A program made the translations under genes and the position numbers. A stretch of DNA of 27,435 nucleotides from a virus, in IMG/VR virus record IMGVR_UViG_3300045993_000178, positions 1-27,435 of that record. One strand, given 5' to 3'. Each line of letters opens with the position of its first letter. The stretch's first letter is position 1. Positions 4,251 to 24,366 of this stretch are shown here, one piece after another. The notes beneath the pieces are model-generated. The model did not search any database. It worked only from the letters and a program-made list of their open reading frames with translations, and was not told the DNA's origin.

Positions 4251-5702
4251 TTACTTGGCCGGAACCTTGGCCTTGGGCATGGAGGGTGCCGGGATCTTTG
4301 CAGGCTTGGCTCCAGGAGCTGCCTTGCCCTGGCCTGCGATCTGTGCTTCCAGGGCAGCGATCTCCTCGTCTGCCTTTGCTTCGGGATCGAAGTTGGCCGA
4401 CAGCCTGGTCTCGAAAGAGTACTTGGTGCCCCCGAAGCGGGAGGCTCGGATCTCATCTACGGCGTCAAGTGCTCCCATGCCCTCGTAGATCGCGTCTATT
4501 TCCGCCTGGGTCTTCCTGGTCTCCGCGATCTCCTTCTCACTGGGAGTGCTGAGGGGGCGGAACTCAAAAGCCTCGTCAGGCTTCAAGCCAACGGACGGCC
4601 CCACGAACTCCACCAGGCGTGCGATGATGGGCCGGAGCTTGATCTCCTGGTCTGCCTGGATGCTGGCGTAGTAGGTCTTGGAGGCCTCCTCATCAGAGCC
4701 TCCACCCCCTAGGCCAGAGGAGGGGATGCCGTAGAGGCGGGGAACAGGGATCTCGGCAACGGCTGCCAGTTCCTCGCGGAAGATCATGGCCGCTTCACGC
4801 CAACCGGATAGGGAAAGGGAGTCCCTGGAGAACTCTCCGCCCTCAGGCAGGAGGATCATGTTCAAGACTGACTTGCCCCGGGCAATAGTGTCCATGACCG
4901 CATTGAGCTGGCTCTTGGCGTCATCTGCGCCGGCGAGCAGGTCCATGAGTCCAGGGATCTTCTGGACTGCAATGGTCGCCTCGTGGATCAGGTTGGCAAA
5001 TGCCTTCTGCGTGGAGTCGCTGTTGGACATCTGCTCGAAGATGGCTTGGAACCGGCCCATGCCCCAGTACAGGTACTTCCACTCCTCTGCGCTGTTCAGG
5101 TCCTCAGGGACCGGGATGCCCTTGGACACGATGCAGCGGGAAGCGTGGACTGAGAGCTGCCCTTGGCCATCGACTGCGAATCTGCGCTGGATCCGGAAGC
5201 GTTCGATGTCCTCGAAGTAGGGGGACCGGGGATCTGTTCCCAAGTCGTTGTTCGTATTCAGGCAGAGGGAAGCCGGGTACACCTTCAGGAAGGTGATCGG
5301 CCGATTGGCATTCTTGGAAACCGGCTCCTCGACGCTCAGGGAGTTGTCCAGGCCCCCCATGACCATGATGCCGCCTCTGTAGAGTTCCGTCCAGGTCAGG
5401 AGGTTCTTGAGGTGGGTGCGTGCTTGGATCTTGTCCAGGGCAGCCAAGATCTTGCCGTCTGGGTCCCCCGGGAACTGGATCCAGGAGCGGATCATGTCGT
5501 CGGGGCGGCAAGAGACGATCTTGCGCCCAAGGCCTCCTCCCGTGTAGATCGAGGTCAGTTCCACGTCGTCCCGCATGTGGGAACGAAGGTACTGAGAGAA
5601 CATCGTGCGATCCTGCTGGCCGCCGTAGCCGACAAGTGCATTGGCCAGGGAGTCCGTGTGGGCTGTCCTGGTGATGGGGCGTCGGCCGAATTCTGCTGCC
5701 AT
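4251..5702 (-). CDS. Portal protein, DUF1073 type
   Basis: A 483-aa protein with the features of the DUF1073 portal family: 'LTSIYTGGGLGRKIVSCRPDDMIRSWIQF' near residues 50-80, 'LYRGGIMVMGGLD', 'FLKVYPASLC', then the stem/crown part 'PVPRLYGIPSSGLGGGGSDEEASKTYYASIQADQE'. The portal is the dodecameric ring through which DNA is packaged by the terminase encoded just upstream. The last 40 residues are an Ala/Pro/Lys-rich flexible tail. Start ATG 5702 has CCGGAG six bases upstream and lies 46 nt after terL. Confidence is high from both motif order and neighbours. Confidence 0.88.
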   Translation of the reverse strand: MAAEFGRRPITRTAHTDSLANALVGYGGQQDRTMFSQYLRSHMRDDVELTSIYTGGGLGRKIVSCRPDDMIRSWIQFPGDPDGKILAALDKIQARTHLKNLLTWTELYRGGIMVMGGLDNSLSVEEPVSKNANRPITFLKVYPASLCLNTNNDLGTDPRSPYFEDIERFRIQRRFAVDGQGQLSVHASRCIVSKGIPVPEDLNSAEEWKYLYWGMGRFQAIFEQMSNSDSTQKAFANLIHEATIAVQKIPGLMDLLAGADDAKSQLNAVMDTIARGKSVLNMILLPEGGEFSRDSLSLSGWREAAMIFREELAAVAEIPVPRLYGIPSSGLGGGGSDEEASKTYYASIQADQEIKLRPIIARLVEFVGPSVGLKPDEAFEFRPLSTPSEKEIAETRKTQAEIDAIYEGMGALDAVDEIRASRFGGTKYSFETRLSANFDPEAKADEEIAALEAQIAGQGKAAPGAKPAKIPAPSMPKAKVPAK

Positions 5703-11577: not shown

Positions 11578-12063
11578 CTATGAGAAAAGATCGACCAGCC
11601 CTGGGATTTCCCGGTAGTCCTCTGTCCAGGGGCCGAAGCGGGCCGCGTCCCCAGCCAGCTGGTCGGCTGCCTCGTTCCCAGGATCCCCATTGTGGCCACG
11701 GACCCATTCGAGGGCCAGATTGGGGCCAAGTGCCCTGGCAGTAGGGAGGATTCGGAGCCAGAGATCGCGGTTAGCCGAGGGCAAGTGGCCAGAAGGGCTG
11801 CAGAGGTGCTTGCGGAGACCGTGGATCGCATACTGGGAGTCTGAACGGATAAGGACACTCCCGGAAGGCCCGACTGCTTCTAGGGCCATCAGAACGGCTA
11901 GAAGCTCGGCCCGTTGGTTCGTGGAACTCGGGAAGCCCTGCTTCAGGGACTCCGTCGTACCATCGGGGAACTGGAGGAGCACGCCGGCCCCCGACTTACC
12001 GCCGGGATTTTTCAGGCACGATCCGTCTGTATTGGCGATGGTTGCTTGGGGGCGGTGTTCCAT
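11578..12063 (-). CDS. rnhA: Ribonuclease HI
   Basis: A 161-aa RNase H that cleaves RNA in RNA:DNA hybrids, normally removing primers or R-loops. All catalytic features are present: TDGSC with Asp13, NQRAELLA with Glu53, SDSQYA with Asp75, and RGHNGDPGNEAAD with His124 and Asp134. Length is typical for the bacterial type without an extra N-terminal domain. ATG 12063 is chosen over an upstream GTG in the same frame; the only promoter found ends its -10 about 7 nt before this ATG, so the message may be leaderless. It lies beside the candidate origin, fitting a role in primer handling. Confidence 0.93.
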   Translation of the reverse strand: MEHRPQATIANTDGSCLKNPGGKSGAGVLLQFPDGTTESLKQGFPSSTNQRAELLAVLMALEAVGPSGSVLIRSDSQYAIHGLRKHLCSPSGHLPSANRDLWLRILPTARALGPNLALEWVRGHNGDPGNEAADQLAGDAARFGPWTEDYREIPGLVDLFS

Positions 12064-12074
12064 TCCCCTAAAAT
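12046..12074 (+). promoter_or_regulatory. Possible divergent plus-strand promoter
   Basis: TTGGGG (12046-12051), 17-bp spacer, TAAAAT (12069-12074), reading away from RNase HI into a 43-codon frame at 12108. The -10 shares its A/T bases with the -10 of the opposite promoter, so the two would compete. The leader TCCCT...AGGGA (12084-12103) could form a small hairpin. Confidence 0.35.
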
Positions 12075-12097
12075 ACACCAAGGTCCCTATTTGTAAA
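12070..12097 (-). promoter_or_regulatory. Minus-strand promoter of RNase HI
   Basis: -35 TTTACA (12092-12097), 16-bp spacer, -10 TATTTT (12070-12075). The distance from the -10 to ATG 12063 is about 7 nt, where transcription would be expected to begin, pointing to a leaderless transcript. It is the only member of the promoter set with a 16-bp spacer and no hairpin before the start codon. Confidence 0.55.
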
Positions 12098-12107
12098 GGG
12101 AGCCAAG

Positions 12108-12239
12108 ATGCCTTTCTTTGCCGAAGGGCTTCCAGAGGGGCTATCTTTGCCTATGAGCAAGACGGGGAAGCCCTTCCCCCGAACTCAGTATCTGGGGATT
12201 CCCCTGGACCCTATGCTGAGAAGCTCCAGAGAGGCCTAG
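12108..12239 (+). CDS. 43-aa putative small protein
   Basis: ATG 12108 has GGGAG five bases upstream and opens a 43-codon frame, MPFFAEGLPEGLSLPMSKTG onwards, ending TAG at 12237-12239. The stop lies inside the left arm of a 14-bp hairpin, as expected for a short gene with its terminator. Pro/Gly-rich, no family recognised. It could be a chance frame; the ribosome site and hairpin are the only support. Confidence 0.4.
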   Translation: MPFFAEGLPEGLSLPMSKTGKPFPRTQYLGIPLDPMLRSSREA

Positions 12240-12269
12240 CCATGTGTCCCATGCTGCTAGGCCTCTCTG
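12227..12269 (+). terminator. 14-bp perfect hairpin, likely terminator
   Basis: CAGAGAGGCCTAGC (12227-12240) is the exact reverse complement of 12256-12269, with a 15-nt loop, followed on the plus strand by TTTCC. It ends the small frame at 12108 and would insulate RNase HI from the plus-strand region. The T-run is weak, so a protein-binding palindrome is the alternative. Confidence 0.5.
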
Positions 12270-12480
12270 TTTCCGGGCTTCCATGGGATCCCTAGCCTGC
12301 CACAGTCCTAGTTGGCCAGTCCTAGACCCCTAGCTGCCCTGTTCCACAGTCCATAGCAGCCTAGCCATAGCTCCCAAGGCTGCCACAGGCCTAGTTCCAG
12401 GGGTTTCCAGGGGTCCCTAGCCTCCCTGGCTGGCCACAGCAGCCCCAGGGAGCTACAAAAACAAAGAAACTAAGGAAGCT
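12230..12480. repeat. CTAG/CCACAG repeat cluster next to AT-rich patch: candidate replication origin
   Basis: Nine CTAG tetramers fall between 12236 and 12420, where about one would be expected at this GC. Four CCACAG copies (12300, 12344, 12383, 12434) are spaced 39-51 bp; three continue as GTCCTAG, GTCCATAG or GGCCTAG, giving a degenerate iteron-like unit. An A-rich stretch (about 12455-12480, ACAAAAACAAAGAAAC) follows, the usual look of an unwinding element. The place between divergent gene blocks and beside RNase H supports an origin. No gene is supported within 12270-12480. Confidence 0.35.
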
Positions 12481-12489
12481 GCCTTGTAA

Positions 12490-12682
12490 TCTTAGGTGGT
12501 GGGGCCTCAGGAGCTGGACACAGGCTACGCCCCTGGAGGACCTGGCAAGCGGCATGGCCTTGGGAGCCTTGACACCTCTGCTAGGGGCTTTTCCCCCGGC
12601 ATTTCCAGTAGCATAGACCCTTCCGATCTATGCCCTCCAGGTTCGTAGCCTGTGCCCTGTTCCTGAGGTCCCACCACCAAGA
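12490..12682 (+). ncRNA. Candidate structured RNA with about 45-bp closing helix
   Basis: Left arm 12490-12529 pairs with 12644-12682: TCTT, GGTGGTGGG, CCTCAGGA and CACAGGCTACG are all matched by complements in order. The helix continues after a CC/TT internal loop with CCTGGAGG (12532-12539) against 12634-12641. Inside, GCATAGA (12611-12617) pairs with 12627-12633 and GGGG-CTTTT-CCCC forms another stem. Two differences between the arms are G-U pairs if the plus strand is the RNA and A-C mismatches if the minus strand is, which favours a plus-strand transcript. No promoter of the usual type precedes it, and no known RNA family was recognised. Confidence 0.45.
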
Positions 12683-12732
12683 CTTTGACATCTTAGTATG
12701 GAGCCGCCCCTATCGCAGTCCACAGGTCCGGA

Positions 12733-12987
12733 GTGCCCCTGAGTTATCCGGAAACCTACTGTCTCGCAGGCTTACACATGGGAAGATACTTTCAGGAAGG
12801 CTACTGTAAAGGGTCCAAGTGCAAAAAAGTTTCGAGGTGCCGAAAGTACTCCACTACAGGGGGCCTCCTGACTAGATTCCATCCCAACAGTATCCCCGAC
12901 GCGAGGGAGGCCTTGGAAACGGGGCTGCCTGCGGACCACCGGGGGTCTTCCCCTCTCCCAACGCCTCTAGGCTCCTCCAAGGCCTAA
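12733..12987 (+). CDS. Putative small cysteine-motif protein
   Basis: An 84-codon frame starting at GTG 12733 (weak CAGG upstream); an internal ATG at 12778 would give 69 aa. The core YCKGSKCKKVSRCRKY has C-x4-C-x5-C-x2-Y spacing, a pattern I recall from small phage and bacterial proteins of unknown role. The second half is Pro/Ser/Gly-rich and overlaps strong hairpin sequence (12950-13007), so part of the frame may be shaped by RNA structure rather than coding. Existence is uncertain. Confidence 0.4.
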   Translation: MPLSYPETYCLAGLHMGRYFQEGYCKGSKCKKVSRCRKYSTTGGLLTRFHPNSIPDAREALETGLPADHRGSSPLPTPLGSSKA

Positions 12988-13007
12988 GCGCAACCCGGGG
13001 AGAGGGG
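12950..13007. repeat. 10-bp inverted repeat CCCCTCTCCC
   Basis: CCCCTCTCCC (12950-12959) pairs perfectly with GGGAGAGGGG (12998-13007); the 38-nt loop has its own short stems. It spans the end of the putative frame at 12733 and is one of several hairpins in the strand-switch region. Confidence 0.5.
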
Positions 13008-13024
13008 TCTTGGGGTTCCAGATG

Positions 13025-13058
13025 TCGGCCGCCTCTGCTCCCTAGAGTACGCGGCCGA
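13025..13058. repeat. 8-bp GC-rich inverted repeat, possible terminator
   Basis: TCGGCCGC (13025-13032) pairs with GCGGCCGA (13051-13058) around an 18-nt loop; AGA/TCT can extend the stem past a bulge. It lies shortly before the strong promoter at 13129 and could stop plus-strand transcription from the structured region. Confidence 0.4.
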
Positions 13059-13128
13059 TCTCTGGGCCTCCTTTCTACACTGCTTTCCCAGGATACGGAA
13101 GAAAGTGCAGAAAGTTGTACCCAACCCC

Positions 13129-13183
13129 TTTACTTTTAGGGTGGGAGGTTGTAGATTGTATGTATGAGGGTCGCGTGACCCTC
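13129..13183 (+). promoter_or_regulatory. Promoter and 5' hairpin of the small-gene cassette
   Basis: -35 TTTACT (13129-13134), 17-bp spacer TTTAGGG.., -10 TAGATT (13152-13157), then hairpin GAGGGTC-GCGT-GACCCTC (13166-13183) and CCAAAGGAATC before the ATG. The block from -35 through the hairpin and ribosome site is nearly repeated at 15988-16056. Confidence 0.75.
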
Positions 13184-13201
13184 TAAACCAAAGGAATCCA
13201 G

Positions 13202-13486
13202 ATGCTCATCGAAGTCAAGACCGGGAAGAAGTTCGGCAAGGTCCAGGAGTACTTGGTCAAGGATGGTCGCAAGGTCGTCGCCAAGATCACAGACGCAGAC
13301 CAGGAGTCCATGCGGCACCTCGACAAGGCCCAGCGCTTCCTAATCGTCATGAACGGATGTGCCTTCTTCCGCCCCACTGGCCGCGATGCAGTCGAGTTCG
13401 TGCGGAGCATCCTCGAAGACAGGCTGAATGCTTTCGGCGGATCTTCCAAGGTCGTGGCTCGCGGCCTGGAGTGCTTCGGAGCATGA
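13202..13486 (+). CDS. 94-aa orphan, first gene of small-gene cassette
   Basis: ATG 13202 has AAAGG upstream. The protein starts MLIEVKTGKKFGKVQEYLVK and is a mixed, compact, lysine-rich sequence with likely alternating strands and helices, including 'SMRHLDKAQRFLIVMNGCAFFRPTGRDAVEFVRSIL'. No family recognised, no membrane segment. It is expressed from the strong promoter just upstream and overlaps the next gene by ATGA. Early position suggests a host-directed role, by inference only. Confidence 0.7.
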   Translation: MLIEVKTGKKFGKVQEYLVKDGRKVVAKITDADQESMRHLDKAQRFLIVMNGCAFFRPTGRDAVEFVRSILEDRLNAFGGSSKVVARGLECFGA

Positions 13487-21575: not shown

Positions 21576-21648
21576 GCCTCCCTAGCTCAATTGGTAGAGC
21601 AATGCCTTTGTAAGGCGGGGGTTACGGGTTCGATTCCTGTGGGAGGCT
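21576..21648 (+). tRNA. tRNA-Thr (anticodon UGU)
   Basis: A 73-nt cloverleaf: acceptor GCCTCCC/GGGAGGC, D-arm GCTC-AATTGGTA-GAGC, anticodon arm ATGCC-TTTGTAA-GGCGG with TGT at the anticodon place (reads ACA; one stem pair is A-G), variable GGGTT, T-arm ACGGG-TTCGATT-CCTGT, discriminator T. CCA is not encoded. It lies in the message between the clamp and polymerase genes. ACA is rare in this phage, whose Thr codons are mostly ACC and ACG. Confidence 0.92.
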
Positions 21649-21768
21649 TTCGAGGGTCGCGGTAGAACGGATCCAGGACCTCGTCCCACGGTGGGCCTGT
21701 GGTCGGGGAAACCTCCGGGAAACGGGCTTCGCGCCCCTCGATCCATTTTTCATAGGAGATTCAGCCTC

Positions 21769-24366
21769 TTGGCAAACAAGCCCTTTTTCGATTTGTTCGG
21801 TGAGGAAGAAGAACCTGTAGCTCCCAAGAGGACTACGGGCCAAGGGTGCGAGTCGTGCCAAAGGTACAAGGGGTGCCAGACCCCCAAGTTCCCAGTATCC
21901 GGACAAGGGGCCAAAGGGATCCTCCTGATCGCTGAATCCCCAGGGCCAAGCGATGATTCCCAGGGACGGCCTCTATACGGGGATGCCGGGGCACTCATCC
22001 GCACGGAACTCCGAAAGCACGGAATCGACGTGGAGCGGGACTGCTGGACAACCCACGCGATCCGTTGCCACCTCCCAAACGACTGGAAGGACCAATCCGA
22101 CAAGGCCCTGGATGGAGAACGGGCCAAGGCTGCCAAGGAATGCCGTCCCAAGCTCCATGCAGACGTTTTGGCCTTGCGGCCCTCCTTCATTATGCCCCTC
22201 GGTCCCGTGGCTGTACAAGCCCTCCTAGGCGACCGCTTGGCAGGTAGGATGTCTGGGACCCAGCCGACGGCATTCATCGGCCAGTGCATCCCCGACCAGG
22301 ATCTGCAGGCGTGGGTCTGCCCGATCCCTGGACTCAAGCACACGCTCAAGCTGGAGAAGAAGCGGGACGTGCAAGAGTTCTTCCGGCGCCACGTTGCCAA
22401 GGCGTGCCAGTACGTGGGGAAGCCGGTGCCCCGCGCCTTCGGGCCGGCCGATGTCACGATCATGGAATCCGCAGCCGAGTACACGAATCTCCTGAGGACC
22501 ATCCAGCCTGGAATGGATGTTGGCTTCGACTACGAGACCACTGGACTGAAGCCCCAACGTGAAGGGCACAAGATCATCTGCGCAGCCGTCGCCTGGGGAC
22601 CTCCAGGGAAGGTCCACGCGTATTCCGGGAAGTTCTACGCCGGCGATCCGGAGTTCATGGCCGAATGGGTCCGGGTGGTCACAGATCCGGAGATCGGGAA
22701 GACAGCACACCAATCCCAGTTCGAGGACATGTGGACCAAGGTGCTCGGAGGGGGACACTGGGTCCAGGGGTGGCGTGCCGACACCTGCCTGGATGCGCAC
22801 ATCGTGAACAATGAGGCCCCTACCAGCCTCAAGTTCCTGGCCTACACGGAATTCGGGATCCTAGGGTATGACCACGAGGTGGACCCCTACATCGGGTCCA
22901 AGGAAAAGGGCGGGAATGAGTTCAACCGCATGGAGGAGTTCTTCAAGAAGTGGCCGACCAAGATGCTGACCTATTGCGGAATGGACGCCATCGCATCTGA
23001 GGAGGGGCGGCACCGGCAACGGGAGACGCTCAGGGAGTACACCCCCCAGCTCAGGGGCTCCAGGTTCTTCATGAGGTCGGCGCCGGAGCTGGCCAGGGCT
23101 TCCCATGTTGGGATGCGTCTGGACACTGGGATGCTGGAGGCCAACAAGCGCAAGCTGGCCGTGGACATGGACGAGACGCTGAAGAGGATCCAGTCCTATC
23201 CGTCGGTTCCCAAGGACTTCAACCCGAATGCTGCCCCCCAAGTCTCCAAGCTTTTCTACGACATCCTTGGTCATAAGATCGGGCGCGGAGGAAGGGTTGC
23301 GGACGAAACGGCACTCCAGTCCTTCGGTACCCCGCTGGCAATGGACGTGCTGGCTTGGAAGAAGATGCACAAGCTGTCTTCCACCTACATCGATGGGTTC
23401 CTTCGGGAGGCCGTAGGCGGGGTGATCCACCCGTCCTACTCCCTGAACAAGGTGGTCACCTACCGGTCAAGCAGCCAAGATCCCAACTTCCAGAACATCC
23501 CCAAGCGGGACCCCATTGCCAAGAAGGCGATCCGCTCCGCGATCAAGCCCCGTCCGGGGCATATCCTGATCGAGGCCGACTACAAGGCTGTCGAAGTGTC
23601 TATCGGCTACTGCAACCACCACGACGCCAACATGGGAAGATACCTGACCGACAAGTCTTCGGACATGCATCGCGACGGAGCGTCCAAGATATTCCTGCTC
23701 CCCGGGTCCGACGTGAAGCCCTATCGTGGGGACACCAAGATGCTCTGGACCTTTGCTGAGTTCTACGGATCCAAGGCGGCGGCCTTCGGGGATGCTACGT
23801 ACGGGGAAGTGACCCTGGCCGTCTGGGAATACCTCCAAGTCCATCCAGAGCTGCTAGCCCACATGGGAAGCCAGGGAATCAAGACCCTCGACGCCCTACA
23901 GGAACACTTGGTGGCGTGCGAAAAGGACCTCTGGACCAATATGTTCCCAGACTACGAGCAGTGGAAGCGGGACACGTGGCGGTTCTACCAGGACAACCTC
24001 TATGTCCCCTTGAAGACCGGCTTCCGGTGCTGGGGACCCCTCGGCTACAACGATGCCACGAACTACCCGATCCAGGGGCCGGCATTCCACTGCCTCCAGT
24101 GGACCATGGACGAGTCAGCCCCACGCATCCGAGACATCGCCGGAGAAGAAGAGGCGGCTGTCTGCTGTGAGATCCACGACGCCTTGGTCATCGACTGCCA
24201 CCCCAGGCATGCGGAGAAGGTCTGCGAGATCGTGCAGGAGTGGGGAACCCGTAGGCTTCCCCAGGCGTGGACCTGGATCGACACCCCCTTGACCATCGAG
24301 ATCGAAAGCTCTTTGGTGAACGGCTCCTGGGCGGACATGGACCTCGTCGAAAAAAGATCCTTCTAA
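21769..24366 (+). CDS. polA: UDG-like domain fused to family A DNA polymerase
   Basis: An 865-aa replicative polymerase. Residues 27-215: family 4/5-like uracil-DNA glycosylase domain with CESC (27-30), LLIAESPG (52-59), GRPLYGDAGALI, TTHAIRC (94-100), KECRPKL and LKHTL. Residues 250-425: 3'-5' exonuclease (DYE at 254-256, HQSQFED, YCGMD at 402-406). Polymerase: SSSQDPNFQNIP, motif A EADYKAVEV with Asp604, motif B R653..K657....YG667, motif C EIHDALV (802-808), where the usual HDE reads HDA. TTG 21769 is chosen: AGGAG lies upstream and the product begins MANKPFFDLFGEEEE, a clamp-binding-like motif; the longer frame reaches into the tRNA trailer. A similar fusion is known in SPO1. Confidence 0.9.
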   Translation: MANKPFFDLFGEEEEPVAPKRTTGQGCESCQRYKGCQTPKFPVSGQGAKGILLIAESPGPSDDSQGRPLYGDAGALIRTELRKHGIDVERDCWTTHAIRCHLPNDWKDQSDKALDGERAKAAKECRPKLHADVLALRPSFIMPLGPVAVQALLGDRLAGRMSGTQPTAFIGQCIPDQDLQAWVCPIPGLKHTLKLEKKRDVQEFFRRHVAKACQYVGKPVPRAFGPADVTIMESAAEYTNLLRTIQPGMDVGFDYETTGLKPQREGHKIICAAVAWGPPGKVHAYSGKFYAGDPEFMAEWVRVVTDPEIGKTAHQSQFEDMWTKVLGGGHWVQGWRADTCLDAHIVNNEAPTSLKFLAYTEFGILGYDHEVDPYIGSKEKGGNEFNRMEEFFKKWPTKMLTYCGMDAIASEEGRHRQRETLREYTPQLRGSRFFMRSAPELARASHVGMRLDTGMLEANKRKLAVDMDETLKRIQSYPSVPKDFNPNAAPQVSKLFYDILGHKIGRGGRVADETALQSFGTPLAMDVLAWKKMHKLSSTYIDGFLREAVGGVIHPSYSLNKVVTYRSSSQDPNFQNIPKRDPIAKKAIRSAIKPRPGHILIEADYKAVEVSIGYCNHHDANMGRYLTDKSSDMHRDGASKIFLLPGSDVKPYRGDTKMLWTFAEFYGSKAAAFGDATYGEVTLAVWEYLQVHPELLAHMGSQGIKTLDALQEHLVACEKDLWTNMFPDYEQWKRDTWRFYQDNLYVPLKTGFRCWGPLGYNDATNYPIQGPAFHCLQWTMDESAPRIRDIAGEEEAAVCCEIHDALVIDCHPRHAEKVCEIVQEWGTRRLPQAWTWIDTPLTIEIESSLVNGSWADMDLVEKRSF

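Follow-up and report, generated by a model that had tools for sequence, protein, structure and literature searches.

The pre-primer for replication of plasmid ColE1 is a non-coding transcript, RNA II; at the origin it remains hybridized to the DNA, RNase H trims it, and Pol I extends it (PMC5043065). Structured RNAs have also been described in phages. The put RNA of HK022 is about 70 nt long and comprises two stem-loops (PMC9378689). GOLLD and ROOL are large, ornate non-coding RNAs that were found by comparative genomics (PMC12286853), as were the manA and wcaG motifs, which are candidate structured RNAs of cyanophages (PMC2864571). Phage structured RNAs are a known kind, and the RNA described here is proposed as a new family of them outside Rfam, with two known members.

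The window, that is, the whole stretch of DNA analysed (27,435 nucleotides), corresponds to the 27.4-kb viral record IMGVR_UViG_3300045993_000178, from an unclassified phage. A region of about 1.1 kb (12082-13201) separates two diverging gene blocks in it. The leftward block contains capsid, protease, portal, terminase, a glucosyltransferase-like gene and RNase HI, and the rightward block contains helicase, dCTP-deaminase-like, DnaB-like, sliding-clamp-like, UDG-family-A polymerase fusion and clamp-loader-like genes, the names of the capsid, portal, clamp, clamp loader and dCTP deaminase being taken from reading the translations, without a database match. This strand-switch region lies near the maximum of the cumulative GC skew, which coincides with the change in gene direction. 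Within it, in otherwise non-coding DNA, a plus-strand ORF of 69 aa (12778-12987) with several cysteines near its start (GYCKGSKCKKVSRC) begins opposite the predicted promoter of the RNA and gave no Pfam match. Regarding the gene blocks, a single frame of 891 aa (21691-24366) carries a uracil-DNA glycosylase domain N-terminal to a family-A DNA polymerase, and the gene at 9674-10582 matches the PHROG for beta-glucosyl-HMC-alpha-glucosyltransferase, a hint that DNA bases may be modified. The only tRNA gene of the window is found at 21576-21648.

The first-pass annotation had pointed to a large nested hairpin in the strand-switch region, at 12490-12682. This hairpin was confirmed, its fold closing at about 12490/12682 and its two arms of 45 nt, located 94 nt apart, being 87% complementary (P1 in Table 1). 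The stems described inside its loop, GCATAGA/TCTATGC (12633-12611) and GGGG/CCCC (12601-12579), were also found, as was the side stem at 12227-12269, a perfect stem of 14 bp; further side stems are visible in the sequence at 12950-13007 and 13025-13058. Moreover, the view that such a helix is unlikely to arise by chance was borne out, as none of 200 dinucleotide shuffles folded as well on either strand with RNAfold, the folding energies being -116.5 kcal/mol for the plus strand (z -7.2) and -130.5 kcal/mol for the minus strand (z -10.2). When windows of 200 nt were scanned over the whole record, the hairpin ranked first (minus strand, z -9.6) and second (plus strand) out of 546.

A homologue was found via TerL (64% identical) in an IMG/VR contig of 8.7 kb, hereafter L004. 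Its positions 1513-1836 align with positions 12753-12432 of the window with 68% identity at the DNA level, in the same place and orientation, and RNase HI (58% identical) is the next gene downstream of the RNA in both phages, while the genes beyond it differ. The loops of the two sequences, folded independently, presented the same nested branched shape with helices at matching positions, a shared shape that arises in 1.7% (L004) and 3.9% (window) of shuffles. Furthermore, L004 scored 68.8 bits with a covariance model derived solely from the window, compared to 39.9 bits with a sequence-only model (+29 bits for structure). Of the 54 pairs compared between L004 and the window, 34 were identical, 9 were changed on both sides, 5 were changed on one side, 2 were deleted on both sides and 4 were broken, these counts being taken from a structure-aware alignment with one homologue. 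The hairpins P0, Pa and Pb, located 5′ of the long stem, also covary with L004 in a hand alignment. Regarding the covariance model from related phages that had been proposed as a check, pairs were kept by compensatory change, but in one homologue only, and the covariation rests on that homologue and on an alignment biased towards the structure. When the structure was projected through an alignment with L004 based on sequence alone, in which hairpins of unequal length are misaligned, the overall result was not significant, with P-values of 0.18-0.76 for the hairpin when the structure of the window was used and a best P-value of 0.02 when that of L004 was used.

All four broken pairs were located in the lower part of P1, in which the 5′ arm has changed and the 3′ arm hardly at all. 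A separate constraint, perhaps binding of a protein or a tertiary contact, probably keeps the 3′ arm conserved. Conservation could also be that of a gene for a small protein, as a minus-strand frame stays open for 78 codons (window) and 94 codons (L004), and short stretches of it match, such as SRGVA-VQL and VA-WGC. However, the peptides differ between these stretches, some indels break the frame (their lengths not being multiples of three), and no excess of third-position substitutions was found in the RNA region, whereas such an excess was clear in the RNase HI gene, so that a small-protein gene is highly improbable.

Concerning the strand, the argument from G-U pairs, by which the plus strand had been taken to be the RNA, turned out to point the other way, since these pairs are commoner on the minus strand (7 vs. 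4). In addition, the inner loop was folded without the long arms, giving z-values of -2.36 (minus) vs. +0.84 (plus) in the window and -2.39 (minus) vs. -0.09 (plus) in L004, relative to shuffles. Because the loop beats the shuffles on the minus strand only in both phages and G-U pairs are more numerous there, the minus strand is the most likely RNA, and a structured RNA of that strand is very probable. By contrast, when the plus-strand structure predicted for the full region of the window was projected through the sequence-based alignment, fewer pairs were broken than expected (P = 0.0045), a result that weighs somewhat against the minus-strand call. The same results bear on an element acting at the DNA level, in which the inverted repeat would work as a cruciform or protein-binding palindrome with no RNA involved. 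The nearly perfect long arms of the window and the strong structure on both strands would suit such an element, but the restriction of the loop structure to the minus strand in both phages would not; moreover, the G-U pairs of the loop would be A-C mismatches on the opposite strand, and, in L004, it is the branched interior that was kept, the outer arms having decayed. Overall, a DNA-level element is improbable.

The structured nature and strand-switch position attributed to the hairpin as an RNA were upheld, but its limits were not, given that the RNA extends 5′ to about 12775 and 3′ to about 12430 at least. It is therefore a non-coding minus-strand RNA of about 340 nt, running roughly from 12775 to 12430 and extending past the hairpin. 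The features of the locus are listed in Table 1. Three hairpins precede the long stem (P0, Pa and Pb), of which Pb is tentative, as it is absent from the MFE structure of the full region in the window. The loop of Pa (CAGGGGC) is invariant in the window and L004 and could be the pseudoknot partner of GGCUCC at 12705-12700, with both sides being invariant. Inside the long stem, PB, PC and PD meet in a three-way junction that is closed by PB. The conserved block stops near 12430, beyond which L004 still aligns, more weakly, to about 12385, and the 3′ flank is likely to be within the transcript.

Table 1. Features of the structured RNA and its surroundings in the window. Comparisons are with the homologue L004; RNA features are predicted.
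Feature	Coordinates	Strand	Remarks
sigma70-like promoter TTTACA-N16-TATCTT	12783..12810	-	Consensus match only, 9/12 positions; predicted RNA start near 12775
5′ hairpin P0, CCUGC/GUAGG	12755..12770	-	Predicted; CUACC/GGUAG in L004, 3/5 pairs changed on both sides (hand alignment)
Hairpin Pa, UCCGGA/UCCGGA	12727..12752	-	1/6 pairs changed on both sides (hand alignment)
Hairpin Pb, CCUGU/AUAGG	12709..12726	-	Tentative; 1 pair changed on both sides, 1 on one side (hand alignment)
Long stem P1, 5′ arm	12634..12678	-	Changed where the 3′ arm is unchanged
Hairpin PA, inside loop	12611..12633	-	3 pairs changed on both sides, 1 on one side, 2 deleted on both sides
Stem PB, CUGG 12608-12605 / CCAG 12545-12542	12542..12608	-	2/4 pairs changed on both sides
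Hairpin PC	12579..12601	-	2 pairs changed on both sides, 1 on one side, 0 broken
Hairpin PD	12547..12577	-	2 pairs changed on both sides, 3 on one side, 0 broken
Long stem P1, 3′ arm	12495..12539	-	12510-12529 (CGUAGCCUNUGUCCAGCUCC) differs by one base only
Conserved 3′ flank, U-rich then GGGG	12385..12490	-	Alignment score 30, 0/1000 shuffles
Eight CCTAG direct repeats	12235..12420	.	Iteron- or operator-like cluster just downstream of the RNA
RNase HI gene	11578..12081	-	Pfam RNase_H 2.3e-25; next gene 3′ of the RNA, same strand

The promoter-like site at 12810-12783 was the only one on either strand of 12080-13210 (mean of 0.4 in shuffles). The RNA, located 3′ of it, stands at the head of the leftward operon and on the same strand, and RNase HI stays the next gene though later genes differ. 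All this would suit a cis-acting leader of that operon (RNase HI through terminase, portal and capsid), whose nascent fold would alter elongation or termination, or would control the first gene, RNase HI. The former would be akin to the put RNA of HK022, an antitermination RNA by which pausing and termination are suppressed in cis. A terminator-like site follows the RNA in L004 (1915-1927, beyond its repeats and before RNase HI), and put RNAs sit 3′ of early phage promoters and work without a dedicated protein (PMC9378689). However, a length of about 340 nt is far from the 70 nt or so and two stem-loops of put, no terminator was found in the region of the window, and about 350 nt lie between the RNA and the start of RNase HI. 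A leader, in either variant, is somewhat unlikely.

With respect to known families, the first reading of the sequence had recognized none, and this was consistent with Rfam 15, where the window gave only a tRNA above the gathering threshold; a permissive Rfam search gave no matches at all in the hairpin core or in L004. Homologues besides L004 were not obtained from INPHARED (blastn) or PLSDB, from pattern scans of IMG/VR or scans of GTDB, from IMG/VR scans with the helicase, TerL and RNase HI proteins, or from covariance-model scans of the fetched loci and their whole records. A number of candidates were discarded: L007 was a pattern match by chance, without protein or RNA similarity, while the weak model matches (L119, L115 and L133) and the nhmmer matches (L077 and L081) reflected the fetching motif, or chance. 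In L006, a more distant relative, stable hairpins occur at 5287-5353 and 5566-5636, between its oppositely read gene blocks, the second one being branched and followed by a T-rich stretch; they are unrelated to the RNA by sequence or covariance model and were rejected as homologues.

A total of 19 TerL-related records were searched, and both the RNA and RNase HI appeared only in L004, so the co-occurrence amounts to two cases, many or most of the compared records being partial (fragments). The constant adjacency to RNase HI in these two cases would be left without explanation if the RNA were a stand-alone, trans-acting one, binding a host or phage protein as a decoy or scaffold, or regulating infection, and no match to a known family speaks for such a role either. 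Nevertheless, the elaborate fold and own promoter-like site would fit it, as would the conservation of the P1 3′ arm beyond the needs of pairing, which is expected of a protein-binding site. A trans-acting role is, on the whole, unlikely.

The DNA following the RNA was rich in short repeats. The eight copies of CCTAG, five of them extended to CCTAGC, have spacings of 8 to 56 bases, and CTAG is otherwise thin in the region. No other part of the window is as dense in 5- and 6-mer repeats as their cluster (12235-12420), and Markov simulations gave P-values of about 0.0002 (CCTAG) and 0.009 (any 5-mer). In the same place, L004 presents four copies of CGGGAA, its densest hexamer direct repeats, which were marginal compared to simulation (0.055). 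In both phages, the densest short direct repeats appear right after the RNA with different sequences, and they look like iterons or operator sites. Moreover, the G-richness of the transcript 3′ of the RNA was modest in the window (skew +0.19) and clearer in L004 (+0.43), a G-rich, hybrid-prone tract being weakly supported in the window. Other motifs were observed in related loci, namely an operator-like palindrome (TGTACATTATGTACA) at 2087-2101 of L004, just 5′ of the RNase HI start, and seven copies of AAAACT within 200 bases at 8991-9200 of L006, the densest repeat of that locus.

The analysis thus shows that the sequence folds, that one homologue keeps this fold, which strand is the RNA (statistically) and that RNase HI lies next to it. 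Among the roles suggested by the first-pass annotation, that of an origin primer RNA is the mechanism tentatively favoured here. The RNA may be an origin transcript that RNase HI would process into a primer, a reading that is possible rather than probable. According to it, a non-coding RNA of about 340 nt would be made leftward, on the minus strand, from the promoter at 12810-12783, and would fold into a 5′ domain of small hairpins followed by the long stem P1, capped by PA and the three-way junction of PB, PC and PD. RNA polymerase would continue into the repeat-bearing DNA at 12420-12235, where the folded RNA would favour a persistent RNA-DNA hybrid; the phage RNase HI would trim this hybrid to a primer, and the phage family-A DNA polymerase would extend it. 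The origin reading is supported by the co-occurrence of the RNA and RNase HI, the adjoining repeats, the UDG-family-A polymerase fusion and the strand-switch position, as well as by the same branched fold in both phages, with its nine double-sided pair changes and +29 bits. Family-A polymerases and DnaB-like helicases are common in phages, and RNA priming is not implied by them. Against an origin role, the RNA does not resemble the 3′ end of ColE1 RNA II in sequence, the short repeats could be repressor sites, and the modest G-richness, the terminator-like site before RNase HI in L004 and the number of cases (only two) also count. Leader or antitermination and trans-acting roles come close behind, being nearly as likely. 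The broader proposal, that a tailed dsDNA phage starts replication from a folded origin RNA from which its own RNase HI makes the primer, with a ColE1-like logic and a new RNA family, is more doubtful.

As a structured RNA with covariation support and outside Rfam, this RNA joins a small set of large phage RNAs, and its pairing with RNase HI ties a folded phage transcript to RNA-DNA hybrid processing in a concrete, testable way. If the origin reading is true, a tailed phage would have an RNA-primed origin of the plasmid type; if it is false, the RNA would still be useful as the seed of a new RNA family.

Compared with the described systems, the RNA resembles manA and wcaG in being a candidate structured RNA of phages, but those motifs are mostly found in the 5′ UTRs of metabolic genes, and the Rfam manA family had no match here. 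It shares with GOLLD and ROOL, some of which occur in phages, a large non-coding nature and an elaborate fold, although it is smaller, has no Rfam match and lies away from the only tRNA gene of the window. GOLLD and ROOL are often near tRNAs. Like the put RNA of HK022, it is a structured phage RNA just after a promoter and upstream of a long operon, but its size (about 340 nt) and its long stem with a branched head set it apart from put as described. In the case of ColE1 RNA II, a likeness to its 3′-end sequence was discarded by local alignment against shuffles (P = 0.09 for the window and 0.33 for L004), and a counterpart of RNA I, which is antisense to the RNA II 5′ end and controls copy number, was not apparent; a scan for sigma70-type sites gave no plus-strand promoter-like site in 12080-13210. 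With no sequence relationship to RNA II, the likeness is one of logic and not of membership; the fold is different, and here the RNA is phage-borne, with an RNase HI of the phage itself, and the hybrid and the priming are putative steps. A transcript of the ColE1 type would be structured and would start at a promoter several hundred bp before the origin; here, a predicted fold and a promoter-like site are present. The two systems would have in common a structured non-coding transcript, the availability of an RNase H and of a Pol I-type polymerase, and repeat- or G-bearing DNA downstream.
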